Positions 8,317 through 58,046 of a stretch of 64,000 bases of DNA are shown in pieces. A program made the position numbers and the translations under genes. This stretch comes from Halobacteriales archaeon QS_8_69_26 (GTDB lineage: Archaea > Halobacteriota > Halobacteria > Halobacteriales > SW-7-71-33), in NCBI GenBank assembly GCA_003023195.1, contig PXRX01000046.1:1-64000 (forward strand). The letters run 5' to 3'. Numbering within the stretch: position 1 is the first letter of the stretch; each line of letters starts with the position of its first letter. The notes under the pieces are model-generated. The model saw only the letters and a program-made list of their open reading frames with translations, had not been told where the DNA came from and did no database searches.

Positions 8317-8689
8317 TCGGTCGGCGGACCGGGCCCCAGTCCAGGAGGGTCGGAACGATCGCGTCCCGGCGGAAACCATCATATAAAGGATATCTGGGGG
8401 TCGGGCTCGGCCGAGAACGACAAGGCGTTTTAAGTCGGCCCGATCCTGAGCATAAGTTATAGGATATAGTATTTTTTGCCGCGAACCGGCGTTAACCGAA
8501 CGTGTTCCCTGCCGGGAGGGATCCGCCCGGCGGTGGCTCGACGATCACACCTGATTGGATCCCGGAAGTAGCTGTTCAGTACTGCGATTCCAGCAGTAAT
8601 ATTGATGCTCTAAAACCGTTTTATCCGCGAACGTCGCCGGTAGATCCAAACCATTATTTGGGTCGAAGGTCATCCATTCTTCCAACAGT
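8317..8689. other. Intergenic region between gyrA and the giant surface protein gene
   Basis: No gene was recognised in these 373 bases. They contain several AT-rich promoter-like patches (about 8381-8394, 8427-8434 and 8457-8477) and a TTATTTG box at 8654-8660 about 30 bases before the mini-ORF at 8690. No tRNA-like or terminator-like structure stood out. Confidence 0.5.
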
Positions 8690-8785
8690 ATGAACGGGTT
8701 CAGTTTGTATTATTGTTGTTACGAAAACGTCGGGGTCGCACGGACGGGGTCCGTCGCGAGGGTCGAACGGGGGGCGAACCCGTGA
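8690..8785 (+). CDS. 31-aa upstream mini-ORF overlapping the giant gene start (GTGA)
   Basis: ATG at 8690 opens a 31-codon frame that ends in TGA at 8783-8785, overlapping the GTG start of the giant surface protein (8782) by the four bases GTGA. A TTATTTG box about 30 bases upstream would make the ATG the first codon of a nearly leaderless mRNA. The peptide has no recognisable family. It may be a leader for translational coupling, or chance. The same arrangement occurs before the RND gene at 58043. Confidence 0.35.
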   Translation: MNGFSLYYCCYENVGVARTGSVARVERGANP

Positions 8786-11700
8786 GGGGCGACGCCCGTC
8801 GGTTACTGGTCGTCGCCGTAGTCCTCGCGGTAGCACTGTCGTTCGCGGGGGGTGCCGGCCTCGTCTCGGGGTCGACGGCGAACGACAACGCCACGGCGGC
8901 AGCGCAACCCGACGAGGTTTACCAGGGTTGTGGACAGGGAACGGGTCAGGACGATTACAACGAGACGATCAATATTACCGAACCCGGGACCTACAAACTC
9001 GCAGAGGATTTCGAGGTCGTCAAAAACGTCGGGACCTGTATCAGCATCGAAGCTTCCGACGTGACTCTCAAGGGGAACGGTGCTACTCTCGGTTTCGATA
9101 ATCTGTTGGATAAGGACAATCAGATCGGCATCGCCGTGGGTAACGATTCGCGAGAAATAGAGAACGTCGTCGTTCAGAGCCTCTCGGTGAAGGGGAGCCT
9201 GGTTCAGGGCGTGGTCTGGGACAAAGGAATAATGGTCCGCCCAGGTGCCTCCGGCGTGGACGACCTGACGATCCGGGACGTGACGGTCCAGATGATCGAA
9301 GAGGAAGGGATCATCTTCGACGGTGTCACTGACGGCAGGATCGTCGATTCGGACGTCAATACTATCGCTATCGACACTACCGCTGACGGAATCACGCTCA
9401 AGAACGGGTGGGACAACACGATTTCCAACACCGATGTATACGATGTCACGAACAGTGGCGTCGGTATTTCGGTTGCCGACAACGACACGGTCATCGAGGA
9501 TTCGTCGGTCCGGAACACGGCCGGTAGAGGGATCGACGTCGCGGGAAGCGCTAACGACACGACCGTTCGTGATACGACCGTCAAGAACGCGGGGAGTGAC
9601 GGCAGTTCCGACGGAATCTTCTTCCAGGCCGACGATGTCAGCGTCGTCGGGGTCAACTCCTCGGAAAACGGCGGGCAGGGGGTCGACATCGAGGGCAAGA
9701 ACGGGACGGTCCTCGACAGCAATTTCTACGACAACGGACACAACGGCATCGACATCGCGGGGGACGACGCGACGGTCCGCAACGTCAGCGTCGTTCGCAG
9801 TCGCTCCGCCGACAGCGTCGTCGTCGCGGGCAAGGACGCGACCGTAGTCAGCGCTACCGTCACCGACGGTGTGAACAAAGGTATCGACATCGAGGCGTCC
9901 AACGCTACCGTCCGCGACACCGTCGTCTCCGGTCACTCTTCGAACTACGGGGTCGATGTCAGGTCGGACAAAGCGACGCTCCGGAACGTGACGGTTTCCA
10001 ACAACGACGACGGGGTTCGCCTGACCGGCGCTCCCGACTCCCTCGTCGCGAACAGCACGATAAAGAACAACAACGCCAACAACCTCTACGCGCAGTTAGA
10101 GGCCGTGGATGCGCCCAGAACGACCGTTCGTAACACCACGGTCCGGGCGAACAGTGATCACGGTATCTACTTCCCCAGTAACAATCAGGGGCCGGACAAC
10201 GTCACGGTCGAGGACAACGACGTCAGGGACGTCACGGGGGTAGGTATCCTGATCATCGACGGCGACGACGTGGTCGTCAGGGACAACGACGTCACCGACG
10301 TCGGCATCAACAACGACGGCAACGGTATCGAGGTTGAAGCAGGGGACGGACCGGTCGTCAAGGGGAACAACGTCACCAACGTCGGTAAAAACGGGATCCT
10401 CGTCGATCAGGCACCGAACGCGGAGATCGGAGGCAACGACATCACCGGGGCCGACAAGCACGGTATCTTCCTGAACCAGGGGACGGACCCGACGTTTACG
10501 GACAACTACGTGAACGGCACGGGGAACGACGGCATCCGGGTCGATCAGGGGGGAAGGGCGACGTTCGATGGGACCGAGGTCCGGAACGCGAGTATCGAGG
10601 GTATCCACTTCCTCGGTTCGTCGAACGTCAACGCGACCGGGACGACGCTCCGCGACAACGGTAACTGGGACATTTACGCCGACAGTAGTTCGAACAACGT
10701 CACCTTCAACGACGTCGACCTGGGATTCGAGAACGCGAACCGGCTGGACCTGAACGTCAGTTACGCGAAAGTGAAGCGGACCAGCGAAGGGAACCGGCCG
10801 GATCCCCGCGAGGCCAAAACTGACATCGGGATCTTCTTCAACGCTTCCGAGACGACCGGCGGTGCCATCCTGAACGTCACGTTGGAGTACGCCCAGAGTG
10901 TCGAGTCGCGTGTCGAGGAGCCGACGATGTCCTTCCAGGAATACCACACCGGAAGCGACGACACGGACTGGGTGAACCGGAGTTCCACGCTCGACACCGG
11001 CACGAATACCCTCGAAGCGGACATCGGGAACCTCTCCGACAACGAACGGCTCTACGCACCGCTCGCGGATCCGAACCGGACGGTCACCGACTGTCAGGTG
11101 ATCAGCGTCAGTGGTGTCTACCAGCTGGACAACGACATCAACGCCCCCTCGGAGTCCGGGGCCTGCATCGAGATCACGGCCTCGAACGTCATCTTCGAGG
11201 GGAACCACTACACGATCACCGGCGGGAACAAGAGCGGGAGCAAGGGCTTCCTGGTCGGCGCGAGCGACCAGCTTTCGAACGTGACCATCAGGAACGTCAC
11301 GGTCTCCACGTGGCGCGACGGCATCAGGTTCGATGGCTCGGCCGCGCCCGCCGTTGACGGGGGGAACGTCACGAACGTCACGGTCGTCGATTCCGGCCGG
11401 GACGGCATCGACATCTACACCAGCAGGGACATTACCGTCGAAGGGACCGAGGTTTCGAACAGCCGCCGTGACGGGATCCGGATCAACAACAAGGGTAGCA
11501 ACGTGATCCGGAACACCTCGGTGACGGGGAGCGGGACCTACGGCGTTGCCGTCTACCAGTCCGACGACAACGAACTGCGGAACGTCACCGTGGAGTCCGG
11601 CAGCGTCGGCGTCCGGATCTACGACAACGGGGCGGACCGAAACGAAGTCCACAACAGTACCGTTCGCGGCACCGACGACGGCATCCACGTCAACGGCGCC

Positions 11701-14700
11701 GACGGCACCGCGGTGAGAAACTCCACGGTCGAGAACGCGGACGTCGGCATCAACCTGACAGAGAACGCTGAAAACAACGTTTTCAACGACACGTCGGTCA
11801 CCGGGTACGCCGACTGGGCGGTCGTCGACGACTCCAGCGGGGCGGACAACCGGTTCAACAGGACGGACGTCGGCCTCGCCAACGGCAACCTCACGTTCAC
11901 GCCGGATGGGGTGAAAGTGAAGAAGGCAGACCGGACGCCGGCGCCCCCGGACGACCAGAACGACATCGACCTCTACATCAACGCCACGAACATCACCGAC
12001 TCGGCGAGCCTGGACCTGACGGTCAACTACGACCCCGGCGCCGCCAGCGACGTGAGCGAGTCGCGGCTTACGATCTGGCGCAACGCTACCGAGTGGTCCG
12101 AACTCGGCGGCACTGCCGACCCCGACCGTAACCAGGTGACGAACGAGGGCATCCAGGACTTCGGCGTGCTCGCACCGCTGGCCGAACGCGTGGTCACCGA
12201 GTGTGGGGTAATCGACGAGTCCGGGGGGTACCTCCTCGACTCGAACATCGTGAACGAGTCCACCGAGGTCTGTATCGAAATCACCGCCGACGACGTCACG
12301 CTGGACGGGCAGGGGAACCTGATCAACGGGACCAACGGCACGGAGAACTCGGTCGGTATCCTGGTGAGCAACGGTTCCTCGAACGTGAACGTCGAGAACG
12401 TCACGCTGGACGGCTGGGAGACGGCCGTCGGCGTCGGTGACGGTGGTTCGCCGACTGGCGTCACCGTCGAGAACGTGACGGTGCTCGCCGACCGGACCGC
12501 GGGCAGCAGAGTCACTGCCGGTATCGCCGCGACCGGCGGGTCGGACCTGACGGTCGGGAACAGCACCGTGTACAAGGTCGACCGCGGTATCGACGTCGAC
12601 GGGACCGGTTCGGTCACGCTGGAGAACAACACCGTCGAGAACGCCGAGGTCGGCGTCCGCCTCGCGGGCGCCGACTCGACGTACCGCGTGAACGGCACGA
12701 CCGTCGAGGTCGTCACCGAGGGAATCCGGGTCGTCGACTCCGGCAGTCTGACGTTCGAGAACACGACGGTGCGGGACGCCTCCGACTGGGCGGTCAACGC
12801 GACCAGGAGTTCCAACGTGGAGTTCACGAATCCCGACCTCGACCTGTCCAACGGGACCGCGTCGTTCACGCTGACCAACGTGAAGGTCGTCAAGGCCGAC
12901 GCGGCGGCGGTGGCGGACCCGCCGGGGACCGAGGGCGACATCGACCTGTTCCTGAACGCGACGACCGCGGACGGTTCCAGTCCCACCCTGGACCTGACGG
13001 TCAACTACGACCTCAGCGGGCGTCCCGACCTCATCGAGAACTCGACGGCCATCTGGCGCAACGACGGAGAAACGACCGGCGACTGGACCGAACTCGACAG
13101 CGACCTGGACCCCGCGAACGACACCGTCAGCCGGACGATCACGTCGATCGACCCGAGCGGTTCGACGGTCGGGCCGCTGGCGGCCAACCGGTCGATAGAC
13201 GAGTGCGGCGTCATCGACGACCCCGGCGAGTACGACCTCGTCGACCACATCAGCAACAGCGAGGCAGACGTGTGCATCGAAATCACGGCCTCGGACGTCA
13301 GGCTGAACGGTGGGGGTTACGAGGTCAACGGCACCAACGGCACGGACGGATCGATCGGCGTCTGGGTGAACGCCGCCGCCGTCGAGAACGTGACGGTCCA
13401 CGACCTGACGCTCGCCGGCTGGGAGACCGGGCTCGAGGCCGGCACCACTGGCGGCTCGCTGACCGGCGCGACGCTGAAGAACGTCGACGTCGTCCACCCC
13501 AACACGACCGACACCTCGACCGGCATCGAAGTGGTGGACGCGTCGAACGTGACCGTCCGGAACGCGATGGTCAGCAACTTCACGCGGGGGATCGTCCTGG
13601 ACAATGCCTCCGACAGCACGGTGGTCGGGAGCGACGTCGAGGACAGCGGGTCCGTCGGAGTCGAACTGACCAGTTCCCAGGGGACTCTCGTGAGGGGGAC
13701 GACCACCGTCGACGGTGCCGGTGACGGCATCGTCGTGACCGACTCGGCGAACGCAAAACTGGTCGACGACCGGGCGCTCAACAACTCCGACGACGGCATC
13801 GAAGTGAGCGGAACCGGCTCGGGCGTCAACCTGACGAACAACACCGTCGAGAACAACACCCACGGGGTCGCGCTCCGGTCGGTCTCCGGGGTGACGGCGG
13901 AGAACACCCGTGCCTGGAACAACACGGTGGGGATCCGGCTGGACGGCGCCGCCAACAACAGGTTCGCGAACGCGACGGTCCGGAACAACAGCGAGTGGGC
14001 GGTCGCGGCTACCCCGGACGGGAGCGGCACCGCAGCGAAGGGCAACGAGTTCGTGACCCCGGACCTGGCCCTGCCCAACGGCACGGTGACGTTCACCGCG
14101 ACCGACGTGAACGTCACGAAGGCCAACGCGTCGCTGGTGGCCGACCCGCCGGGGACCGAGGGCGACATCGACCTGTTCCTGAACGCGACGGCGACGTCCG
14201 CGAGTCCGAGCCTGGACCTGACGGTCGAGTACGACCTCTCCGGGCGCGACGACCTGGTCGAGCAGTCGGTCGCCATCTGGCGCAACGACGACGGGACGCC
14301 CGACACCTGGAACGAACTTGACAGCGATCTGAACACCTCGAACGACACGGTTTCCCGGGAAATTACGACCTTCGACGCGGGCGGTTCGACGTTCGGGCCG
14401 CTGGCGAGCAACCGGTCCATCGACGACTGTGGCGTCATCGACGACCCCGGCGAGTACGAACTGGTCGACGACATCACCGACGACGACGCGGAGACCTGCA
14501 TCGAGATTACGTCCTCGAACGTCTCCCTGCACGGGGGGTACCACCTCGTCGACGGCGTGAACGGCACGACCGACTCCCGGGGGATCTGGGTCAACGGGTC
14601 CAACCAGGAGAACGTGACCGTCGAGAACGTGTTCGTCGAGGGCTGGGCGACCGGCCTGCAGGTCGGCGTCGACAGTGGTACCTCGTTCGTGAACGGCACG

Positions 14701-17700
14701 GTCGCGAACGTCCGTGCGGTCGATCCGAACACGACCGACTCCGAGGGCGTCGTGCTGGTCGGCGTCGACGACGTCACGGTCACCAACGCCACGGTCGTCA
14801 ACGCCACCCGGGGTATCGTCGTCGACGACTCGCCGGATAGTACGGTCGAAGCTAGTTCGGTCCGGAACGCCTCGGACGTCGGTATCGACGTCTCGGGGTC
14901 GGGCGGGACCAACGTGACGGAGGCGTTCGTCAACGACTCCGGGACTGGGATCCGCCTCGCGAGTTCCTCGTCGTCGCGGCTGACCGACAACGAGGTCGTG
15001 AACAACAGCAATGACGGGATCCACGTCGAGAGTTCGACGGGCGTCACGGTGGAGCGCAACGACGCCGTGAACAACTCGGACGACGGGATCGAGATCGCGA
15101 GTTCCGGCAGCGCGTCCCTCCGGAAGAACACGGCACTGGACAACTCCGGGGCGGGCGTCAACCTCACCGCCAACTCCGACGACGCGGACCTCGTGGACAC
15201 GGTGGCGAGGAACAACACCGACGGCGTGCGCGTGGACGGTTCGACGGACCTCTTCGCCGAGAACGTCACGGTGACCGACAACGCGGACGGCGTGCGCCTC
15301 GCGGGCGCTCCCAGTAACTCGTTCGCGAACACCACCTTCAGGGACAACTCGGACTGGGCGATTCACGCCACGACCCGGGGCGGACAGCAGTCCAGCAACA
15401 ACGAGTTCGCGAGCCCGGACCTGGACCTGCCGAACGGGAACGCGTCGTTCACGCTGACCGACGTGAAACTCGCGAAGGCCAACGCGTCGCAGGTGGCCGA
15501 CTCGCCGGGGACCGAGGGCGACATCGACCTGTTCCTGAACGCGACGGACACGTCCGGCGCCGCGACCCTGGACCTGACGGTCGAATACGACCTCAGCGGG
15601 CGCGACGACCTGGTCGAGCAGTCGGTCGCCATCTGGCGCAACGACGAGGGGACGACCGCCAACTGGACCGACCTTGGCGGTGACCTCGACACGGACAACG
15701 ACACCGTCACGAAGGTGCTCACCACCTTCGACGACGTGTCGACGTTCGGGCCGCTTGCGGCAAACCGGTCGATCGACGACTGTGGCGTCATCGACGACCC
15801 CGGCGAGTACGAACTCGTCGACGACGTGACCGATGCGGACACCGACGTCTGTATCGAGATAACGGCCTCGAACGTCACCTTCGACGGCGGGAACTACGAA
15901 CTCAACGGCACCAACGGCACGGCCGGTTCGATCGGCGTCTGGGTGAACGCCTCGAACGACCGGAACGTGACGGTGACGGACCTGACGGTCGCCGGCTGGG
16001 AGACCGGGATGCAGGTCGGCTCGGCCGACGGGACCCTGACCAACGCGACGGTCGCCGACGTCCGGGCGGTCGCCTCCAACGGCTCCACCGTCAGCGAGGG
16101 CATCAACGTGACCGGCGCGGAGAACGCGACGGTGCGCGACGCGACGGTCCGGAACCAGACGCGCGGGATCGTATTTGACGACTCGACGGAGAGTACGGTC
16201 CGGAAAGCCACCGTCGAGAACGTCACCCTCGGCGTGCGCCTCGCTGGGTCCTCGGACCACGTGGTGAGTAACGTCACGGTCCGGAACGCGACCGACGCCG
16301 TCCAACTGGTCGATTCCGCGGACAACCTGTTCCGCAACACGACCGTCCGCGAGGTCACCGACTGGGTGGTCGACGCCAGTTCGAACAGTGCGCGCGGCGG
16401 GAACAACACCTTCCGGAGTCCGGACCTCGACCTGCCCAACGGGACGGTCGCCTTCGAGGTCGGCGACGCGAAGGTCACCACGGCGAACGCGTCCCGGGTG
16501 GCGGAGGCGCCGGGCCTCGAGGACGACATCGACCTGTTCCTCAACGCCACCGGATCGGGCTACCTGAACCTGACGGTCAACTACGACATCGACGGCGAAC
16601 CCACGCTCATCGAGGACTCGGTCCAGCTCTGGCGGAACGACAACGGGACCACCGAGGGCTGGACGGACCTCCCGAGCGACCTGGACACCGGCGACGACAC
16701 GGTGTCCGAAAACGTCACCGACCTCTCCGGCCCGGTGCGGACGGTCGGACCGCTGGCGACCAACCGGTCGATCGACTCGTGTGGCGAGATTACCGCACCC
16801 GGCGAGTACGAGGTGGTCGCCGACGTCACCGACGCCGAGGCGCCGGCCTGTCTCGAGGTGACCGCCTCGAACGTGAGCGTCGACGGCGGGTACCACGTCT
16901 TCGACGGCGTGAACGGCACTCCCGGGTCCCGGGGTGTCTGGGTCCACGACTCCAGCGGGCTGTCGAACGTGACGGTGACGGCGCTGACGACGACCGGCTG
17001 GGAGACCGGGGTCACGTTCAACGACACCACCGAGAACGGGACGCTCGAAGACGTGCTGGTCCCCGACGACAACGCGACGGTCGCGACCGGGATCGAACTG
17101 GGCGACGGGACCAACGTGACGGTCCGGAACGCCACGGTGGACAACGCGACCACCGGTATCGTGCTCGACGGCGTTACCGAGGGCGCGGTCGTCGACAGCG
17201 CGGTCAACGGCTCCGGGACCGGCGTCGCACTCCGGGGCGGGTCGAACAACAGCCTCGTCCGGACGAACGTGACGAACGCGAGCGGCGCCGGTGTGTCCCT
17301 GGCGGGGTCGGACGACAACGTGGTCGACAACACGACGGTCGCGAACACCTCCGACGGGGTCCGGCTCAGCAGTTCCTCGGACACCCTGTTCGCGAACGTG
17401 ACGATACACGCCAGCGCCGACTGGGCCGTCGTCGCCGAGTCCGGGTCCACCAACGCGACGTTCGACCATCCGAGGCTGGGCCTGCCCAACGGCACCGCGA
17501 ACTTCACGTTGAGCAACGTGAAGCTCCGTACCGTCGACCAGGACGACGCGCCCCAGACCCCGATCACCCAGGACGGTATCGGGATGTTCCTCAACGCGAC
17601 GAACACCACCAGCGAGGGTCAGTTCAACCTGACCGTCAGCTACGAACAGAGCGTCGAGGGGGACATCGTCGAGGACACCCTCGCTATCTGGCGGTACGAC

Positions 17701-20700
17701 GAGGCCGCCGACGACTGGACCGAACTCGACAGTGCCCTCGACACGGGCGACAACACGGTGTCCCGGAACATCTCCGGGTTCTCGGTGTTCGCACCGCTCG
17801 CGACGAACCGGACCATCACGGAGTGTGGGGTCATCGACAAGGAAGGACCGTGGGATATCGGCACGGACATCGTCAACGATTCGGTCGACCCCTGTATCCG
17901 GATCACTGCGTCGAACGCCACCCTCGACGGGCAGGGACACGTCATCAGCGGCAACCGCTCCGACTCCACGCTCGCTGGCCGCACGGGGATCCTGGTCAAC
18001 GACTCGGACCAGGTCACGAACGTCACGGTCGAGAACGTCGTGCTCACCAGCTGGTCCGAGGGGATCCGGTTCGGTGGTACCGAGAGCACCGGCGTGGACG
18101 TCGACGGCGTCACGGTGCGCAACGTCAACGCGACCGCCAGCGGACTCCCGGACGTCGGCGAGGGCCTCGAAACCGGCGTTCGCATCGTCGACTCGAAGAA
18201 CGCGACCCTGCAGGACGTGACCGTCGGGGGTAATGCCTCGCTGGTCGTCACCGACGGCATCGCCCTCGAGGGCGTCACCAACGCGACCGTCGCCGGCGGT
18301 GACGTCTCCGCCGCCGAGACCGGGATATCGGTCCGCGCCGGGTCCGACCGGGTCGACGTCGAGAACAACAGGGTGAGCAACGCCACCGTGGCGGGCGTCC
18401 GGGTCACCGGAAGTTCCACTGCGGTCGTGGTCGACGACAACGACGTCACGCACAGCGCCGATGGGATCGTCCTCGCGACGACGGCGACGGCCACGAACAA
18501 CACCCTGCTGTTCAACGACGCCGGGATCGTCCTCGACAGCGATTCGAACACGGTCCGGGACAACGTCTACGAGAACAACACCGAGGGCCTCGCGGTGCAG
18601 GGCCGGTTCAACGACGTCGAGAACGACACGTTCCGGAACAACACCAAGGGGGTACGGCTGTCGGCCTCGGACAACGAGTTCCGGAACCTGACCGTCCGGA
18701 ACAGCACTGACTGGTCGGTGGTCACCGACGACACCGTCCCGTCGCTGGTCGGCAACAACACCTTCGTGACCGCCGACTTCGACTTCCAGTACGGGACGGT
18801 GACGTTCACGGCCGGCGACGTCAACGTCAACCGGACCGCCGACGGGGACCGGCCCAGCATCGACTCGATCCCGGAGGCCAAGAAGGACGTCGACGTCTAC
18901 CTCAACGTCACCAGGGTCTCCAGCGCGGGGTACCTCAACCTCTCGGTCGACTACGTCCGCAGGAGTCCGCCCGAGATCGAAGACGAGACCCTGGCGGCCT
19001 GGCGGCACGACGGCACCTGGGACAACCGGAGCGGTGACGTCAACGAGACCACCCAGGTGATGCGCAAGAACCTCACCGCGGCGGCGAACGACTTCGGCGG
19101 CGGGGGCTCCGTGGTCATCGCGGCGCTGGCCGACCCGGCGGCGCCGGACTTCCGGGTCCGGATCAACGCGACCAACTCGCCGGTCAACGAGACCAAGACC
19201 CTGCAGGTGAGGGTCGACGTCACCAACACCGGCGACCTCGGCGGAACCCAGACCATCGCGCTGTCGCACAACGAGACTGCGGGTACCACCGAGGAGGAGA
19301 CCAGAACCCTGGATCCCGACGAGAGCGCAACCCTGAACCTGACCTGGGACACCAACCGCGGCGACTTCGGCGACTACGTGGCGAACGTCACCACCGAGAA
19401 CGACTCGGCCACCCGGAACGTCACGATCCTTCGGTTGCCGAACTTCACCGTAACCGACGTGGAGTCCGATTCGCCGGTCATCGAGGGCGAGACCCTCACG
19501 GTGAACGCGACGGTCGAGAACGTCGGTGATTCCCCGCAGACCCAGACGGTCAACATGACCATCGACGGGGAACCGAACGGTAGCGATACCGTCTCCCTCG
19601 ATCCGGGGGAGAGCAGGGATATCGAATTCACGTGGGACCCCACCGATGGCGATGACGGCAACTACACCGCCACGATACACAGCGCCAACGACTCCGGGGA
19701 CACGAACGTCCGGGTGCTGGACGCCCCCGACTTCCAGGTGACGATCAACGAGACCAACGACCCGGTCGTCGAGACGAACAACTTCACCGTGGAGGCCGTC
19801 ATCAACAACACGGGCGAGGTGAACGACACGCAGACCATCGAGATGGTCATCGAGGACAATGTCTCCAACAATGTCGTCGAGACCGTCTCGAAGACCGTGA
19901 GCGTGAACGGCGGCGCGGAGAAGACGATCCACCTGAACTGGTCGACCGTGCGTGGCGACGACGGCAACTACACGGCCAACGTCAGCTCCGAGAACGACCG
20001 GGAGGACGCCGGCGTGCAGGTGCTACGGGCGCCGAACTTCACGGTGACCGTCGTCAACGTCACCACGCCGGTGATAGAGGGCGAGAACGTCACGGCCACG
20101 GCCGACATCGAGAACACGGGCGAGGTCAACGACACCCAGACGGTCGAACTGGAGGTGAGCGACGGCATCGGTCCCCAGGACGAGCACGTGGACCTGACGC
20201 TGGGCCCCAACGAGGAGCAGCGGATCAACCTCACGTGGGAGACCGACCGTGGCCAGGACGGCAACTACACCCTCACCGTCACCAGCGCCAACGACTCCGA
20301 CGACGGAGACGTCTGGGTCAAGGACGACACGAACTTCCAGGTGAGCATCGACGGGACGAACTCCCCGGTCGTCGAGGGCGAGACGATGGACGTCGACGTC
20401 ACCGTCACGAACACCGGCGAGGTGCCGGGCGAACAGACGGTGGAGCTGACGATCCCCGGTGGCGGTACGGTGCGTGACGCCCGGACGGTCCAGCTCGACC
20501 CCAGTGAGCAGGCCTCGTTCACGCTCAACTGGTCGACGGATCCCACCGACGGCGACACCTACGTGGCCGAGGTCGCGAGCGCCAACGACTCCGCCCAGGA
20601 GGAGGTGACGGTCCAGACGCCCGCGAGCTTCCAGATCGCCGAAGTTGACACCAATGCCCCGGTGCTCGAATCGGAGACGATGGAGTTCGTCCTGCTCGTC

Positions 20701-23283
20701 CAGAACCAGGGTGACCTCCCCGATACGCAGCGCGTGAACTTCACGGTGAACGGGTCCGTCGTCGACAGCACGACTCTGACCCTGGATGGCGGTGGGCAGT
20801 CACTCGTCACCCTGACGTGGGATACTGAAACCGGTGACGCGGGCGAGTACATCGCGACCTTCGATACGGACAACGACAGCCGCCAGCGGAACGTGTCGGT
20901 GCTGGCACCCGGCGCGTTCACCGTCGACGTCGAGTCGACGACCTCGCCGGTCGTCGAGGGCGAACCGTTGAACGTCACGGTGACGGTCACGAACACCGGC
21001 GACACGCAGGACTCACAGACACTTTCGGTGGAGGTCGGCGGAGACGTCGTCGACTTCACGGAGGTCAGTCTGGCCGGTGGCGAGTCCGAGGTGTACGAAC
21101 TCACCTGGCAGACGGAGGGCGGTGACGCCGGGAACTACCAGGCGAACGTCACCACCGAGAACGACACTGCCCGGACGGACGTGCGGGTGGACAGTCCGTC
21201 GGCGTTCACCGCCACCGTCGAGGATACCAACGCGCCGATCCTGGAGGGCGAGACCCTCCGGGTGAACGCGACGGTCGAGAACATCGGCGACGTCGAGGGG
21301 ACCGAGACCGTCGCGCTGGTCGTCGACGGCGAGGAACGTGCCTCCCGCAACCTCACCCTGGGCGGCGGCGAGAACGAGACGATAACGCTGTCGTGGACGA
21401 CCGAGGAAGGCGACGGCGGTAAGTACGACGCCGAGGTCCGGTCCGGTCCCAACGGCGACAACACGACCGTGACCATCCAGCGCCCCGCCGAACTGGCGGT
21501 CCAGATCCAGGAGGTCGAGTCGCCGGTCGTCGAGGGCGAGGAGATGGCCGTCGTCGCGTCCATCGAGAACGTCGGTGACATCCCGGTCTCGCGCACGGTC
21601 GTGCTGTCGGTGGGCGGCCAGGAGCGGTACACCCAGGACCTGACGTTCTCCGGCGGTGAGGAGCGTACCATCCGGCTCCCGTGGGAAACCGGCGAGGGCG
21701 ACGCGGGCAACTACACGGCGACGGTCTCCATCGGCGGTCAGTCCGCCTCCGAGGAGGTCCGCGTGCTCGCCCCCGCGACGTTCGAGGTGAGCGTCGATAC
21801 CGTCTCCTCGTCGGTCGACCTCGGACAGAACGTCTCCACGACGGTCATCGTCGAGAACGTCGGCGACCTGGCGGGGAACAAGACGGTGACGCTGTCGGTC
21901 GGGGACGCCGTCCGGAGCGAGGAGACGGTTTCCCTCGACCCCGGCGGGGAAGAACGGATCGTCCTGACCTGGGCGACGACCGATAGCGACGAGGGCCAGT
22001 ACGCGGCACTCGTCGAATCGCCCGACGACAGCGAGGCCTTCGACGTGAGTGTCGGACAGTCCGGTAACAATGGCACTCGCCCGCCGAAACCCAACGAGCT
22101 ACCGACGGTCACCATCGGATACGGTCCCGAATCGCCGGGTCCGGGCCAGACCGTCGACTTCAGGGCGAACGCCGAGGACCCCGACGGGACCATCGAGGCC
22201 TACCAGTGGCGGATCGATGGCGAACCCGTCTCCCGGAGCGGTTCGTTCTCGACCACCTTCGAGCAGAGCGGCACGTACACGGTCAAGGTCGTGGTGACCG
22301 ACAACCGCGGTGACAACGCCGAGGCCAAGACGGTCGTGGTGGTCAACGAGGCGCCGACCGCGGAGATAACGGACGCCCCCGACACCGTCAGGGAGGGCCA
22401 GACCGTCACCTTCGCCGGGACCGGGAGCGACCCCGACGGCGACGTCGTCAGCTACACCTGGAAGGTCGACGGCGAGGTCGTCGGTAGCTCCCAGAACCTG
22501 GAGTACACCTTCCAGGAGGGCGGGACCCACCAGGTGACGCTCGAAGTGACCGACGACGCCGGCGAGACCACCGCGACGACGGTGAGCGTCGAGGTCACCG
22601 GAAACGTCCCGCCGTCGGTCGACATCTCCGGCCCGACGCAGGTCGAGACCGGCGAGACGGCCGAGTTCTCGGCCCTGGCGACCGACTCGGACGGTCAGGT
22701 CACCGACTACCGGTGGTTCGTCGACGATACCATCGTCTCCGACGCCGAGAGCATCGAGTTGACGTTCGAAGAGCCCGGCAAACAGGAGGTCAGGGTGGTC
22801 GTCAGTGACGCCGACGGTGCCGAGGCCGAGGCCACCGTGACGGTGTTCGTCAACGAGCCACCGGAGGTCGACATCGAGACGAACGTCTCCAACGAGACGG
22901 TGGGCGTCAACGAGTCCATCAGCTTCGACGTCGACCCCCAGGAGGACCTCGGCGAGAACGTCACCTACGAGTGGCGGGTCGACGGCGAGGTGGTCGACAC
23001 CGGCGAGACCTTCGACTACACGTTCGAGGACGACGGCAGCTACGACGTGACGCTCGTGGCCACCGACGAGAACGGGTCGACCGCCACGGAAACCCGGGAG
23101 ATCCTGGTCGAGGGCCAGCAACAGACCGAGTCCGGTAGCGGCGACGAGCTGGACATCGCTGGCGCCCAGGACGCCATCGTGCCGATACTGGTCGTGCTCG
23201 GGTTCCTGACGCTACTGGGCGTGTACATCTACGTCCGGTTCCGGCAGGTAACCGGCGGCGGCGAGTCCGACTCCGGTAACTGA
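8782..23283 (+). CDS. Giant modular cell-surface protein (beta-helix / CARDB / PKD, C-terminal anchor)
   Basis: A giant exported protein of 4,833 aa. The GTG at 8782 gives a good Sec-type signal (MRGDARRLLVVAVVLAVAL...); a TTG at 8713 would add 23 residues with no signal-like character. Residues about 45-3450 are eight parallel beta-helix modules (NosD/PbH1-like). Each starts with a two-cysteine segment (CGVIDDPGEY...CIEITASNV) and most end in a beta-sandwich-like stretch (GDIDLFLNAT...AIWRND...FGPLA). Residues about 3454-4424 are ten CARDB-like repeats (SPVVEGE...VTNTGE...GNYTA). Residues about 4440-4778 are four PKD domains. Residues 4799-4820 form one transmembrane helix with a short tail, so the bulk is outside the cell. 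N-glycosylation sequons are very dense. It has no PGF-CTERM motif. Likely roles are adhesion, surface coat or carbohydrate binding; no catalytic site was recognised. Confidence 0.93.
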   Translation: MRGDARRLLVVAVVLAVALSFAGGAGLVSGSTANDNATAAAQPDEVYQGCGQGTGQDDYNETINITEPGTYKLAEDFEVVKNVGTCISIEASDVTLKGNGATLGFDNLLDKDNQIGIAVGNDSREIENVVVQSLSVKGSLVQGVVWDKGIMVRPGASGVDDLTIRDVTVQMIEEEGIIFDGVTDGRIVDSDVNTIAIDTTADGITLKNGWDNTISNTDVYDVTNSGVGISVADNDTVIEDSSVRNTAGRGIDVAGSANDTTVRDTTVKNAGSDGSSDGIFFQADDVSVVGVNSSENGGQGVDIEGKNGTVLDSNFYDNGHNGIDIAGDDATVRNVSVVRSRSADSVVVAGKDATVVSATVTDGVNKGIDIEASNATVRDTVVSGHSSNYGVDVRSDKATLRNVTVSNNDDGVRLTGAPDSLVANSTIKNNNANNLYAQLEAVDAPRTTVRNTTVRANSDHGIYFPSNNQGPDNVTVEDNDVRDVTGVGILIIDGDDVVVRDNDVTDVGINNDGNGIEVEAGDGPVVKGNNVTNVGKNGILVDQAPNAEIGGNDITGADKHGIFLNQGTDPTFTDNYVNGTGNDGIRVDQGGRATFDGTEVRNASIEGIHFLGSSNVNATGTTLRDNGNWDIYADSSSNNVTFNDVDLGFENANRLDLNVSYAKVKRTSEGNRPDPREAKTDIGIFFNASETTGGAILNVTLEYAQSVESRVEEPTMSFQEYHTGSDDTDWVNRSSTLDTGTNTLEADIGNLSDNERLYAPLADPNRTVTDCQVISVSGVYQLDNDINAPSESGACIEITASNVIFEGNHYTITGGNKSGSKGFLVGASDQLSNVTIRNVTVSTWRDGIRFDGSAAPAVDGGNVTNVTVVDSGRDGIDIYTSRDITVEGTEVSNSRRDGIRINNKGSNVIRNTSVTGSGTYGVAVYQSDDNELRNVTVESGSVGVRIYDNGADRNEVHNSTVRGTDDGIHVNGADGTAVRNSTVENADVGINLTENAENNVFNDTSVTGYADWAVVDDSSGADNRFNRTDVGLANGNLTFTPDGVKVKKADRTPAPPDDQNDIDLYINATNITDSASLDLTVNYDPGAASDVSESRLTIWRNATEWSELGGTADPDRNQVTNEGIQDFGVLAPLAERVVTECGVIDESGGYLLDSNIVNESTEVCIEITADDVTLDGQGNLINGTNGTENSVGILVSNGSSNVNVENVTLDGWETAVGVGDGGSPTGVTVENVTVLADRTAGSRVTAGIAATGGSDLTVGNSTVYKVDRGIDVDGTGSVTLENNTVENAEVGVRLAGADSTYRVNGTTVEVVTEGIRVVDSGSLTFENTTVRDASDWAVNATRSSNVEFTNPDLDLSNGTASFTLTNVKVVKADAAAVADPPGTEGDIDLFLNATTADGSSPTLDLTVNYDLSGRPDLIENSTAIWRNDGETTGDWTELDSDLDPANDTVSRTITSIDPSGSTVGPLAANRSIDECGVIDDPGEYDLVDHISNSEADVCIEITASDVRLNGGGYEVNGTNGTDGSIGVWVNAAAVENVTVHDLTLAGWETGLEAGTTGGSLTGATLKNVDVVHPNTTDTSTGIEVVDASNVTVRNAMVSNFTRGIVLDNASDSTVVGSDVEDSGSVGVELTSSQGTLVRGTTTVDGAGDGIVVTDSANAKLVDDRALNNSDDGIEVSGTGSGVNLTNNTVENNTHGVALRSVSGVTAENTRAWNNTVGIRLDGAANNRFANATVRNNSEWAVAATPDGSGTAAKGNEFVTPDLALPNGTVTFTATDVNVTKANASLVADPPGTEGDIDLFLNATATSASPSLDLTVEYDLSGRDDLVEQSVAIWRNDDGTPDTWNELDSDLNTSNDTVSREITTFDAGGSTFGPLASNRSIDDCGVIDDPGEYELVDDITDDDAETCIEITSSNVSLHGGYHLVDGVNGTTDSRGIWVNGSNQENVTVENVFVEGWATGLQVGVDSGTSFVNGTVANVRAVDPNTTDSEGVVLVGVDDVTVTNATVVNATRGIVVDDSPDSTVEASSVRNASDVGIDVSGSGGTNVTEAFVNDSGTGIRLASSSSSRLTDNEVVNNSNDGIHVESSTGVTVERNDAVNNSDDGIEIASSGSASLRKNTALDNSGAGVNLTANSDDADLVDTVARNNTDGVRVDGSTDLFAENVTVTDNADGVRLAGAPSNSFANTTFRDNSDWAIHATTRGGQQSSNNEFASPDLDLPNGNASFTLTDVKLAKANASQVADSPGTEGDIDLFLNATDTSGAATLDLTVEYDLSGRDDLVEQSVAIWRNDEGTTANWTDLGGDLDTDNDTVTKVLTTFDDVSTFGPLAANRSIDDCGVIDDPGEYELVDDVTDADTDVCIEITASNVTFDGGNYELNGTNGTAGSIGVWVNASNDRNVTVTDLTVAGWETGMQVGSADGTLTNATVADVRAVASNGSTVSEGINVTGAENATVRDATVRNQTRGIVFDDSTESTVRKATVENVTLGVRLAGSSDHVVSNVTVRNATDAVQLVDSADNLFRNTTVREVTDWVVDASSNSARGGNNTFRSPDLDLPNGTVAFEVGDAKVTTANASRVAEAPGLEDDIDLFLNATGSGYLNLTVNYDIDGEPTLIEDSVQLWRNDNGTTEGWTDLPSDLDTGDDTVSENVTDLSGPVRTVGPLATNRSIDSCGEITAPGEYEVVADVTDAEAPACLEVTASNVSVDGGYHVFDGVNGTPGSRGVWVHDSSGLSNVTVTALTTTGWETGVTFNDTTENGTLEDVLVPDDNATVATGIELGDGTNVTVRNATVDNATTGIVLDGVTEGAVVDSAVNGSGTGVALRGGSNNSLVRTNVTNASGAGVSLAGSDDNVVDNTTVANTSDGVRLSSSSDTLFANVTIHASADWAVVAESGSTNATFDHPRLGLPNGTANFTLSNVKLRTVDQDDAPQTPITQDGIGMFLNATNTTSEGQFNLTVSYEQSVEGDIVEDTLAIWRYDEAADDWTELDSALDTGDNTVSRNISGFSVFAPLATNRTITECGVIDKEGPWDIGTDIVNDSVDPCIRITASNATLDGQGHVISGNRSDSTLAGRTGILVNDSDQVTNVTVENVVLTSWSEGIRFGGTESTGVDVDGVTVRNVNATASGLPDVGEGLETGVRIVDSKNATLQDVTVGGNASLVVTDGIALEGVTNATVAGGDVSAAETGISVRAGSDRVDVENNRVSNATVAGVRVTGSSTAVVVDDNDVTHSADGIVLATTATATNNTLLFNDAGIVLDSDSNTVRDNVYENNTEGLAVQGRFNDVENDTFRNNTKGVRLSASDNEFRNLTVRNSTDWSVVTDDTVPSLVGNNTFVTADFDFQYGTVTFTAGDVNVNRTADGDRPSIDSIPEAKKDVDVYLNVTRVSSAGYLNLSVDYVRRSPPEIEDETLAAWRHDGTWDNRSGDVNETTQVMRKNLTAAANDFGGGGSVVIAALADPAAPDFRVRINATNSPVNETKTLQVRVDVTNTGDLGGTQTIALSHNETAGTTEEETRTLDPDESATLNLTWDTNRGDFGDYVANVTTENDSATRNVTILRLPNFTVTDVESDSPVIEGETLTVNATVENVGDSPQTQTVNMTIDGEPNGSDTVSLDPGESRDIEFTWDPTDGDDGNYTATIHSANDSGDTNVRVLDAPDFQVTINETNDPVVETNNFTVEAVINNTGEVNDTQTIEMVIEDNVSNNVVETVSKTVSVNGGAEKTIHLNWSTVRGDDGNYTANVSSENDREDAGVQVLRAPNFTVTVVNVTTPVIEGENVTATADIENTGEVNDTQTVELEVSDGIGPQDEHVDLTLGPNEEQRINLTWETDRGQDGNYTLTVTSANDSDDGDVWVKDDTNFQVSIDGTNSPVVEGETMDVDVTVTNTGEVPGEQTVELTIPGGGTVRDARTVQLDPSEQASFTLNWSTDPTDGDTYVAEVASANDSAQEEVTVQTPASFQIAEVDTNAPVLESETMEFVLLVQNQGDLPDTQRVNFTVNGSVVDSTTLTLDGGGQSLVTLTWDTETGDAGEYIATFDTDNDSRQRNVSVLAPGAFTVDVESTTSPVVEGEPLNVTVTVTNTGDTQDSQTLSVEVGGDVVDFTEVSLAGGESEVYELTWQTEGGDAGNYQANVTTENDTARTDVRVDSPSAFTATVEDTNAPILEGETLRVNATVENIGDVEGTETVALVVDGEERASRNLTLGGGENETITLSWTTEEGDGGKYDAEVRSGPNGDNTTVTIQRPAELAVQIQEVESPVVEGEEMAVVASIENVGDIPVSRTVVLSVGGQERYTQDLTFSGGEERTIRLPWETGEGDAGNYTATVSIGGQSASEEVRVLAPATFEVSVDTVSSSVDLGQNVSTTVIVENVGDLAGNKTVTLSVGDAVRSEETVSLDPGGEERIVLTWATTDSDEGQYAALVESPDDSEAFDVSVGQSGNNGTRPPKPNELPTVTIGYGPESPGPGQTVDFRANAEDPDGTIEAYQWRIDGEPVSRSGSFSTTFEQSGTYTVKVVVTDNRGDNAEAKTVVVVNEAPTAEITDAPDTVREGQTVTFAGTGSDPDGDVVSYTWKVDGEVVGSSQNLEYTFQEGGTHQVTLEVTDDAGETTATTVSVEVTGNVPPSVDISGPTQVETGETAEFSALATDSDGQVTDYRWFVDDTIVSDAESIELTFEEPGKQEVRVVVSDADGAEAEATVTVFVNEPPEVDIETNVSNETVGVNESISFDVDPQEDLGENVTYEWRVDGEVVDTGETFDYTFEDDGSYDVTLVATDENGSTATETREILVEGQQQTESGSGDELDIAGAQDAIVPILVVLGFLTLLGVYIYVRFRQVTGGGESDSGN
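8914..19128 (+). repeat. Eight beta-helix modules within the giant protein gene
   Basis: Module starts were placed at 8914, 11062, 12178, 13177, 14401, 15754, 16753 and 17797 from the recurring LAxNRxIxxCGVID boundary. Lengths are about 716, 372, 333, 408, 451, 333, 348 and 444 residues, so modules differ by whole beta-helix turns. The heads of modules 4, 5 and 6 are nearly identical at the DNA level, which points to recent duplication or gene conversion. Confidence 0.8.
19141..22052 (+). repeat. Ten CARDB-like repeats within the giant protein gene
   Basis: Ten repeats of about 97 residues share the pattern F-x-V...SPVVEGE...V-x-NTGD...DPGE...L-x-W...GDDGNYTA...NDS. CARDB domains are Ig-like adhesion folds that often serve as stalks in archaeal surface proteins. 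Here they link the beta-helix part to the PKD domains. Confidence 0.8.
22099..23115 (+). repeat. Four PKD domains within the giant protein gene
   Basis: Four copies of about 85 residues each contain the PKD hallmark (DPDG...Y-x-WxxDGE...YTFxxxGxYxVxLxVTDxxG). They sit next to the C-terminal transmembrane helix encoded at about 23176-23241 and probably form the cell-proximal stalk. Confidence 0.8.
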
Positions 23284-50059: not shown

Positions 50060-52714
50060 TCACCCACTCGTGGCCCACGCCTGGATGATCGCCCGGAGTT
50101 CCTCGGTGGTGTACTCGCCCTTGGCCCACTTGCCGATGGCGTCCCCGAGTTCGTCCGTGTCGATGTCGCCGTCGTCGTCCTTGTCCGCCTCGTCGACGGG
50201 GTCCTCCGGGTCGGGGTCCGTGTCGGAGTCGGATTCCAGCCCCTCGAAGACGTACGCCGACCCGGACCCCGGGCCGTTGGGGTCCTCGTCGCGCCAGGCC
50301 CCGACCAGCCCCCTGTCGCCGTCGAGGTCGACGTCGGTGCCGAAGTTGTCGCCCTCGTCGCCGTCGTCAGCGGCCAGTTTGGCCGCCCGGGTCCACCCCT
50401 CGTCGGTCCGTTCGAAGACGTACGCCGAGCCCGCTCCGTCGCCGTTGGGGTCGTCGTCGTTCCAGGCACCGACGAGCGCGACGTCGCCGTCGACGGCCGT
50501 CCGGACGCCGAAGAGGTCCTCGCCGCTCCCGTCGTCGTCGGTTAGCTTCGCCGCCTGGGTCCACTCGCCGTCGGACCGCTCGAAGACGTAGGCCGCGCCG
50601 GCGTTCTCCTCGTCGGACGCGTCGTGCGTGGGGGATCCGACGAGGGCGGTGTCGCCGTCCAGGGAGACGGCGAAGAAGGTGTCGCCCGCCTCGCCGTCAC
50701 CGGCGACGAGTTTGTCCCCCTGGGCCCACTCCCCGTCGGACCGCTCGAAGACGTAGGCCGCGCCCGCGTCCTCGCCGTTGGGGTCCTCGTCCCTGTAGGC
50801 CCCGAGGAGGGCGGTGTCGCCGTCAATTGCGACCAGGGTCCCCAGCTCGTCGCCCTCGTCCCCGTCGTCGGCGACGAGCTTGTCCCGCTGTGTCCACTCG
50901 CCGTCGGAGCGGTCGAAGACGTAGGCCGCCCCGGCGTTCTCGCCGTGGGGATCGCCGTGACCGCTGGCCCCGACGAGGGCGGTGTCGCCCTCCAGTGCGA
51001 CCGAGATCCCGAAGAGGTCCTCGCCGCTCCCGTCGTCGGCGGTTAGCTTCGCCGTCTGGGTCCACTCGCCGTCGGTCCGCTCGAAGGCGTACGCGGCGCC
51101 GGCGTCCTGGCCGTCGGGGCCGTCGTGGAGGTAGGCCCCGACGAGGGCGGTGTCGCCGTCCAGGGCGACGGACTGTCCGAACCCGTCGAGGCTGTCGCCG
51201 TCGTCCGCGGCGAGTTTCGCCTGCTGGGTCCAGGTTCCTCCCTCGTTCACGAACACGTACGCGGACCCGCCGCCGGGGCCGTTCGGGTCGTCGTCGCGGA
51301 CGGCCCCGACGAGGGCGGTGTCGCCGTCGAGGGCGACCTTCCAGCCGAACCGGTCGCCCGTGTCGCTCTCGTCGACGGACAGCGTCTCCTCCCGGGTCCA
51401 CCCGTCCCCGGACCGTCCGAAGACGTGTGCCGCCCCCGCGTCCTCCCCCTCCTCGTCGACGCGGGGCGCGCCGGCGGCGAGGGCGTCCCCGTCCAGGCCG
51501 ACGGCCCACCCGAAGAAGTCGTTCTCCTCCCCGTCGTCGTCGACGAGTCGGGCTCCCTGGCCCCACCCGTCGTCGGACCGCTCGAAGACGTAGGCCGCGC
51601 CCGCGTTCCCGTCGTGCCCGTACGCCCCCAGGACTGCCGTGTCGCCGTCCAGGGAGAGCGACCTGCCGAAGAAGTACTCGTCGTCCCCGTCCGCCGGGGC
51701 GAGTTTGTCCTGCTGGGTCCATCCCCCGTCTCCCCCCTCGAAGACGTAGGCCGACCCGGCGCTGGACCCGTTGGGATCCTCGTCGGTGGGGGCCCCGACG
51801 AGGGCGGTGCCGGCGTCCAGTTCGACGGCGTTGCCGAACCCGTCGGACGCGTCGGCGTCCCCGGCGACGAGTTTCGCCGCCTGGGACCACGCCCCGCCGG
51901 ACCGGTCGAAGACGTACGCCGAGCCCGCACCGACCTCGAACCCCACGGTGTCGGTGTCTGCCCCGACGAGAGCGGTGTCGCCCGCCACCGCCACCGCCGA
52001 TCCGAACCTGTTGCCGGGGGTGCCGTCCTCGGCGGCGAGTTCCGCCGTCCGGCTCCACCCGTCGTCACCGCTCTCGAAGATGTACGCCGACCCCCGGGTC
52101 TCCTCGTCGGCGAACCTGGCCCCGGGGGCCCCGACGAGGGCGAGGCCGCCGTCGAGTGCGACCGCCGTCCCGAACTGGTCGGCCGGATTCCCGCCGTCGG
52201 CGACGAGTTTCGCGGCCTGGGTCCAGCCGTCACCGGACCGTTCGAAGACGTACGCGGAGCCGGCGTCCTCGCCGTTGGGGTCCTCGTCCGCGATGGCCCC
52301 GACGAGGGCGGTGTCGCCGTCGAGGGCGACGGACCAGCCGAACAGGTCACCGGTGTTGCCGTCGTCGGCGACCAGTTTCGCCTCCCGGCTCCACCCCTCC
52401 CCGGTCCGCTCGAAGACGTACGCCGCGCCCGCGCCCTCCCCGTTCGGGACGTCCTCGGTCCGCGCCCCGACGAGCAACGTGTCCCCGTCGAGTGCGACCG
52501 ACGACCCGAACAGTCCGCCCGGATCCGGGTCGTCGCTCTCGGCGGCGAGTTTGGCCGTCTGGGTGGGCGAGAGCGTCGCCGGCGCTCCCACGGAACCGTC
52601 GGCAACCGCCGGGGTTGCGCCCCCGACGCCCGCGATGCCCGCCGCGCCCGCGGCACCGGTCCACCGGAGGAACCGTCGCCGGGAGGGTCCCGCGGTCGGG
52701 TGCTCGTCGGTCAT
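50060..52714 (-). CDS. Tat-exported FG-GAP repeat protein with dockerin-like tail
   Basis: An 884-aa secreted protein. The N-terminus has a twin-arginine signal (PSRRRFLRWTGAAGAAG...), so it is exported folded, as is common in haloarchaea. Residues about 60-815 are 14 repeats of about 54 residues (DLFGWSVALDGDTALVGA...GSAYVFERSGDGWTQAAKL), an FG-GAP-like pattern; 14 could build two seven-bladed beta-propellers. The last ~60 residues contain DKDDDGDIDTDELGDAI and EYTTEELRAIIQAWATSG, a dockerin/EF-hand-like module. No membrane anchor is present. Surface interaction or polymer binding is likely; no catalytic residues recognised. Confidence 0.88.
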   Translation of the reverse strand: MTDEHPTAGPSRRRFLRWTGAAGAAGIAGVGGATPAVADGSVGAPATLSPTQTAKLAAESDDPDPGGLFGSSVALDGDTLLVGARTEDVPNGEGAGAAYVFERTGEGWSREAKLVADDGNTGDLFGWSVALDGDTALVGAIADEDPNGEDAGSAYVFERSGDGWTQAAKLVADGGNPADQFGTAVALDGGLALVGAPGARFADEETRGSAYIFESGDDGWSRTAELAAEDGTPGNRFGSAVAVAGDTALVGADTDTVGFEVGAGSAYVFDRSGGAWSQAAKLVAGDADASDGFGNAVELDAGTALVGAPTDEDPNGSSAGSAYVFEGGDGGWTQQDKLAPADGDDEYFFGRSLSLDGDTAVLGAYGHDGNAGAAYVFERSDDGWGQGARLVDDDGEENDFFGWAVGLDGDALAAGAPRVDEEGEDAGAAHVFGRSGDGWTREETLSVDESDTGDRFGWKVALDGDTALVGAVRDDDPNGPGGGSAYVFVNEGGTWTQQAKLAADDGDSLDGFGQSVALDGDTALVGAYLHDGPDGQDAGAAYAFERTDGEWTQTAKLTADDGSGEDLFGISVALEGDTALVGASGHGDPHGENAGAAYVFDRSDGEWTQRDKLVADDGDEGDELGTLVAIDGDTALLGAYRDEDPNGEDAGAAYVFERSDGEWAQGDKLVAGDGEAGDTFFAVSLDGDTALVGSPTHDASDEENAGAAYVFERSDGEWTQAAKLTDDDGSGEDLFGVRTAVDGDVALVGAWNDDDPNGDGAGSAYVFERTDEGWTRAAKLAADDGDEGDNFGTDVDLDGDRGLVGAWRDEDPNGPGSGSAYVFEGLESDSDTDPDPEDPVDEADKDDDGDIDTDELGDAIGKWAKGEYTTEELRAIIQAWATSG

Positions 52715-52992
52715 GCGTTACCCTCCCGTCCGTCGACGGTCCCGTGGTCGTTGTACGCCATCGTGTTGGCCACCTTACCTTCGGTCCAGTTATTAATTTT
52801 GGGAATTAGAGCGAGGATCTTTCTCCACCCCGTCTCGGTGAAAACGGCCACCGGTGTCGCGCCGTGGGTCGAGGGGGCCCGTCTCCCGGGACTGGGAGGG
52901 CGACCCGGGACTGCCGGTCCCGTCGCGCGGTCGTCCGGCGACGGATCGCCGCCACCACAGGACGTTTCCGTGCCGGCCGTCCGGATCCGACC

Positions 52993-58001: not shown

Positions 58002-58046
58002 ATGACGACGAGCCACCGATCCGCCGACGGGAGGGGTCGCCGGTGA
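58002..58046 (+). CDS. 14-aa upstream mini-ORF overlapping the RND gene start (GTGA)
   Basis: ATG at 58002 encodes MTTSHRSADGRGRR and stops at TGA 58044-58046, overlapping the GTG start of the RND gene in GTGA. With TTAGTAG 22-28 bases upstream, the mRNA would begin at or next to this ATG. The leader would let ribosomes loaded on a leaderless mRNA reach the GTG start by coupling. Confidence 0.35.
   Translation: MTTSHRSADGRGRR

Follow-up and report, generated by a model that had tools for sequence, protein, structure and literature searches.

Giant surface proteins are prominent in halophilic archaea yet poorly understood. A 64,000-nucleotide stretch of a haloarchaeal draft genome (the window) encodes one with eight beta-helix modules, raising the questions of how such a protein is built, how its repeated modules arose, what role they may serve at the cell surface, and whether the assemblage corresponds to any system already described.

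The gene and its genomic setting

A single uninterrupted open frame occupies positions 8713-23283 on the plus strand of the window, which lies on contig C46 of a draft assembly of 3.29 Mb (46 contigs; 87% complete). Because a GTG codon at 8782 immediately precedes a predicted signal peptide, we place the start there, giving 4,833 codons and a protein of ~505 kDa with a pI of 4.05. An initial annotation of the sequence had given these coordinates, a length of about 4,830 residues, and eight beta-helix, ten CARDB-like and four PKD domains, all of which are borne out by the open frame, profile searches and Pfam; its description of the size as "4.8-kb-codon" had the magnitude right, the unit being a slip for 4.8 thousand codons. 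Codon usage is uniform along the gene, with third-position G+C (GC3) of 0.83-0.93 from end to end, in line with that of the adjacent genes. We discounted a minus-strand ORF opposite the gene (10096-19932; 3,278 residues) as a shadow that the coding frame casts at high GC.

The gene resides in a housekeeping region, as its neighbors indicate: upstream lie the topoisomerase VI B subunit (minus strand), gyrB, a small winged-helix protein and gyrA (gyrB and gyrA being named by reading their translations), and downstream an unknown protein followed by an arginase-family enzyme and a thiolase. No obvious partner in secretion, sugar metabolism or metal handling occurs among these neighboring genes. 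The encoded GyrB shows at most 78% identity to named haloarchaea, so the host is a haloarchaeon with no close named relative among those matches. Elsewhere in the window, an 884-residue, cysteine-free protein (50060-52714, minus strand) with 14 FG-GAP_2 stretches (703 bits) is possibly another surface protein, of beta-propeller-like type, and an RPE65/carotenoid oxygenase family protein (52864-54420, plus strand; 357.7 bits) is plausibly, from its family assignment, a retinal-forming enzyme.

Domain order and membrane anchor

Profile searches and hydropathy analysis reveal a simple linear order of eight cap-plus-sandwich modules, ten CARDB domains, four PKD domains and a C-terminal transmembrane (TM) segment, with Pfam matches over the whole protein to Beta_helix (9e-149), NosD (1.6e-102), CARDB (1.6e-31) and PKD_4 (1.3e-37). 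The features are as follows (window positions; aa, amino acid residues):

8380..8781, plus strand: AT-rich intergenic stretch 3' of gyrA, read in the sequence; probable promoter region
8782..23283, plus strand: whole gene, 4,833 aa; single open frame, GC3 0.83-0.93 throughout
8782..8880, plus strand: predicted Sec-type signal peptide, aa 1-33, without lipobox Cys; hydrophobic stretch aa 3-31, the first Cys of the protein being aa 50
8905..11055, plus strand: module 1, aa 42-758; two-Cys cap (C50, C86), long beta-helix, sandwich (Pfam, profile search)
11056..12171, plus strand: module 2, aa 759-1130, Cys 771 and 795 (Cys positions, profile search)
12172..13170, plus strand: module 3, aa 1131-1463, Cys 1141 and 1164 (Cys positions, profile search)
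13171..14394, plus strand: module 4, aa 1464-1871, Cys 1475 and 1498 (AlphaFold2 model)
14395..15747, plus strand: module 5, aa 1872-2322, Cys 1883 and 1906; closest to module 4 (56-57% identity, tree)
15748..16746, plus strand: module 6, aa 2323-2655, Cys 2334 and 2357 (Cys positions, profile search)
16747..17790, plus strand: module 7, aa 2656-3003, Cys 2667 and 2690 (Cys positions, profile search)
17791..19137, plus strand: module 8, aa 3004-3452, Cys 3015 and 3038 (Cys positions, profile search)
19144..22062, plus strand: ten CARDB domains, aa 3455-4427, ~96 aa each (Pfam; repeat alignment; ten matches with their own profile)
22090..23115, plus strand: four PKD domains, aa 4437-4778 (Pfam PKD_4, four stretches; own profile)
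23167..23241, plus strand: predicted C-terminal TM helix, ~aa 4796-4820, followed by a 13-residue tail (hydropathy; no PGF-CTERM match)

Only two hydrophobic stretches of TM length occur in the whole protein (~aa 3-31 and aa 4790-4821), corresponding to the signal peptide and the C-terminal anchor that the initial annotation had also recognized. The anchor is a plain TM segment: the last 80 residues contain no PGF and Pfam returned no PGF-CTERM match, so that the protein lacks the signature of an archaeosortase substrate. The same genome carries other PGF-CTERM proteins and two ArtA-type archaeosortase genes (exosort_PGF; G000 contig C1:61685-62554, L060, and contig C12:4701-5534, L061), both scoring far above cut-off in profile searches. 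The use of a plain anchor despite the presence of archaeosortase is a distinctive point of this protein.

Anatomy and predicted fold of the module

Each module comprises a short cap with two cysteines, a right-handed beta-helix, and a sandwich of ~115 residues whose last strand (ending FGPLA or FAPLA) leads directly to the following cap. Module 1 (717 residues) has roughly double the length of the others. The protein's 16 cysteines all lie in the caps, two per module, at a spacing of 23-24 residues except in module 1, where the first Cys is displaced and the spacing is 36. Among 62 distinct caps in the loci collected, 56 have both cysteines, three have neither, and two are cut by the end of the locus; the remaining cap is that of module 1 itself, where a single Cys is apparent and its partner is displaced upstream. 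This joint presence or absence is the expectation for a disulfide, which the cap cysteines probably form; as two of the three Cys-free caps are related, the independent events are few.

An AlphaFold2 model of module 4, computed from an alignment of 16 modules, showed a beta-helix followed by a sandwich (mean pLDDT 91.1, pTM 0.89), and searches of the PDB with this model (Foldseek) retrieved AlgE alginate epimerases, NosD, phage tailspikes and PfbA. Membership in the right-handed beta-helix superfamily is likewise indicated by PF13229 (490 bits; cut-off 25.9), with which the predicted structure agrees. Together, signal peptide, single C-terminal TM segment, Pfam matches and modeled fold uphold the proposal of a surface protein with beta-helix modules, and the single-module structure prediction suggested as a check gave the anticipated result. 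The sandwich modeled alone reached a pLDDT of 90.8; for it, the PDB yielded a single significant match, to the ankyrin ZU5 region (E 7e-4, TM 0.56, 13% identity). Searches of Pfam with the sandwich returned no match worth naming and none to ZU5, and the PGF-pre-PGF domain (TIGR04213) matched only two of 19 sandwiches, with a best E of 0.0085, which does not place the sandwich in that family. Autoproteolysis of the ZU5-UPA type was considered and dropped, since no Phe-Ser is conserved toward the end of the sandwich. This ZU5-like sandwich, which lacks a Pfam model and recurs in many haloarchaeal surface proteins, would merit a family entry.

In an alignment of modules 2-8 the invariant residues are Gly, hydrophobics, Trp, Tyr, Cys, Asn, Thr, Pro and Arg, residues of a structural kind; none is Asp, Glu, His or Lys. 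The modules also lack the DPH motif of alginate epimerases, and modules 2-8 show no conserved catalytic Asp/His/Tyr set like that of those enzymes. The lack of invariant Asp, Glu, His and Lys and of DPH makes a shared catalytic site unlikely. That the eight beta-helices are catalytic, making the protein a polysaccharide-processing enzyme (lyase, epimerase or hydrolase) held at the cell surface, is accordingly improbable in our estimation, even though mannuronan C5-epimerases, GH87, polygalacturonases and tailspike depolymerases rank among the best PDB matches by fold and sequence; structural comparison with the enzymes gives TM-scores of ~0.4-0.55. An unusual active site may be formed in some modules only, the module fold resembling that of polysaccharide-active enzymes. 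A role in copper or other metal handling, like that of NosD in nitrous-oxide reductase maturation, could be read from the strong Pfam NosD score and from NosD among the PDB matches, but we consider it extremely unlikely: the Pfam model acts as a general beta-helix repeat model, the specific NCBIfam NosD subfamily model (TIGR04247) scores 165 bits against a cut-off of 300, which leaves the protein outside that subfamily, and nos genes are absent among the annotated neighbors.

Duplication history and soundness of the assembly

To trace the origin of the row, a tree was built from 175 columns of cap and sandwich and 50 rows that included modules of other proteins; in several cases two of these rows represent one sequence, taken from overlapping loci or files. 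The eight modules of the window formed one clade (bootstrap 88), indicating that the duplication surmised earlier took place within this lineage. Modules 4 and 5 are closest to each other, joined next by 3, 6 and 7, with 8, 2 and 1 outside; this closeness of the middle modules is what would be expected if tandem duplications had recurred in the central part of the row. Since the sandwich was found nowhere else in the same genome (an 87% complete draft), the expansion is confined to the giant gene as far as the draft shows.

A repetitive gene in a 46-contig draft could also reflect repeats collapsed or expanded during assembly or annotation and joined into a false frame, a refuting possibility already raised by the initial annotation. 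Identity between modules does not exceed ~57%, and no exact DNA repeat is longer than 51 bp; this divergence argues against either recent or artefactual expansion. Together with the uniform codon use, the complete domain order and the presence of both ends of the protein, it makes such an artefact very unlikely.

Sequon excess and probable glycosylation

The sequence contains 220 N-x-S/T sequons, compared with 77 +/- 8 in shuffled sequences and 71 occurrences of the reversed motif, in keeping with the very high density first noticed. Observed and expected numbers were 169 and 60.5 in the modules, 44 and 14.5 in the CARDB region, and 5 and 2.5 in the PKD region, which adds little to the excess. 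All other tested ORFs of the window summed to 26 sequons against 24 expected, with no excess as a group; the only one among them with a clear excess was a 1,605-residue MMPL/Patched-type membrane protein (58043-62860, plus strand), which lacks cysteine and has 13 sequons where 3.6 are expected. We considered whether the excess is a by-product of the beta-helix consensus and rejected this explanation, given the enrichment of the CARDB region as well. Moreover, relatives with the same folds gave observed/expected values of 34/39, 32/33, 36/31 and up to 71/25 (nearly threefold); several thus have little or no excess, and the fold alone does not force one.

In the model of module 4, the sequon Asn lies outside predicted strands in 16 of 21 cases, and a gene for the STT3/AglB oligosaccharyltransferase is present in the genome. 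Glycoproteomics of Haloferax has shown N-glycosylation of a NosD-type protein and of large proteins secreted by haloarchaea (PMC8241124). From these sequence features, the giant protein is probably N-glycosylated.

Distribution of the module and giant relatives

The cap profile matched 141 of 295 sampled haloarchaeal genomes of the order, spanning 55 of 88 genera, usually with one cap per protein. A whole-module profile, whose signal is partly general beta-helix, extended the matches to genomes from many further families of the phylum. The one other genome sampled from the host's family (63% complete) gave no match, and no relatives of module 5 were found in viral contigs.

Giant proteins in several other genera combine cap, helix, sandwich, CARDB and PKD parts in permuted orders and numbers; several have one cap with long CARDB arrays, and many end in a PGF-type C-terminus. 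Among the few hundred genomes sampled, the most caps found in one frame elsewhere was three, and with sampling on this scale larger multi-cap proteins may exist. One such relative (L023; G024 contig 53; same order, other family; 2,529 residues) shares three cap/beta-helix/sandwich modules with six cysteines for its three caps, CARDB domains, a signal peptide and a C-terminal anchor, but has only those three modules, places CARDB between them, ends in a PGF-type C-terminus and, unlike the giant, shows hardly any sequon excess (30 against 23 expected). Five others (L050, L051, L052, L055 and L056, from genomes G174, G086 and G268) carry two or three caps with helix and sandwich, CARDB arrays and in some cases PKD domains, but in permuted order and numbers, L055 ending in a PGF-type C-terminus. 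Single modules occur in Natribaculum luteum WP_246975478.1 (PKD domain-containing; 1,585 residues), which shares the Cys cap, beta-helix, PKD and a sandwich-like stretch after the helix, and in Halocatena salina WP_247995614.1 (NosD domain-containing; 398 residues), which shares the Cys cap and beta-helix. In contrast to the fused row of the giant, one contig of another genome (G127 contig 11, 5978-75778) has the same module multiplied into four separate genes with a single Cys cap each. At a further locus (L031:2464-6105, minus strand), a Cys-capped beta-helix and sandwich are fused to DUF7282 and a 5'-nucleotidase/metallophosphoesterase, showing that surface enzymes, too, carry the module as an accessory domain.

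We define a group of haloarchaeal beta-helix/CARDB/PKD giants by (i) at least one two-Cys cap with beta-helix and sandwich, (ii) a CARDB and/or PKD array, and (iii) a signal peptide with a C-terminal anchor. The window protein has all three, and within this setting its eight uninterrupted modules in a row are distinctive. Tentatively, the cap, beta-helix and ZU5-like sandwich might constitute an undescribed, self-contained unit from which archaeal surface proteins are built, widespread in haloarchaea and here duplicated in tandem into the longest uninterrupted row seen, with module number setting the reach or avidity of a glycoprotein fiber.

A proposed role at the cell surface

Fold, topology and the lack of a conserved active site point to an adhesin or coat protein as the most likely role. 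In our favored reading, which we hold to be probable, the product is a Sec-exported, membrane-anchored and heavily N-glycosylated giant whose stalk and module row act as a non-enzymatic, multivalent adhesin or coat protein. The fourteen Ig-like domains next to the membrane (ten CARDB, four PKD) would form the stalk, lifting the row of eight modules outward past the S-layer. Each module would be a non-enzymatic right-handed beta-helix with a disulfide-stapled N-terminal cap and a ZU5-like C-terminal sandwich joined to the next cap. Repeated from module to module, the faces of the helices, with their glycans, could then make many weak contacts with polysaccharide, neighboring cells or surfaces, hence the multivalency envisaged, and the row would have grown through tandem duplication within the lineage.

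The repeat unit of the giant is clean and its predicted fold confident; with a disulfide open to testing, a strong signal for glycosylation and a history of duplication that can be traced, single modules should be amenable to expression and testing.

Comparison with known giant surface proteins

Full-text searches, covering mainly literature outside subscription journals, found no literature describing this domain combination. Halomucin of Haloquadratum (9,159 residues) has been read as a hydrated coat against desiccation, and a group of smaller homologues, Hmu2 (1,350-3,072 residues), carries beta-helix domains (PMC1544339, PMC4535781). Compared through their published descriptions only, Hmu1 and Hmu2 of Haloquadratum walsbyi are likewise giant, acidic, secreted haloarchaeal proteins, and the low pI, ~505 kDa mass and abundant sequons of the window protein would suit a similar capsule component, serving mainly as a hydrated, negatively charged glycoprotein coat with specific binding secondary. 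We judge this possible but on balance doubtful, since halomucin is read as mucin-like on the strength of compositionally biased domains, which set Hmu1 apart by description, whereas the architecture of the giant is modular and ordered and includes a membrane anchor. SPEARE giants of nanohaloarchaea combine a signal peptide, a huge Ig-like ectodomain and a C-terminal TM segment (PMC6642349, PMC10266531) but possess a large cytoplasmic VirB4/TraG-like ATPase domain where the window protein has only its short tail, which places it outside that group. Going by published descriptions, neither halomucins nor SPEARE giants match its architecture. For the adhesin or coat reading, a parallel is PfbA of Streptococcus pneumoniae (4mr0; Foldseek E 3e-6), a surface adhesin that is, like the modules, a right-handed beta-helix, but a bacterial one with a single helix and 10% identity.

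To the initial annotation, this order and size were not familiar as those of a described system. This stands for the exact architecture of eight, ten and four domains, unmatched in the samples searched, but not for its components, the module being common and permuted giants occurring in other genera. The architecture is not a new kind: its parts are common in relatives, and the protein is a striking member of an ordinary family.
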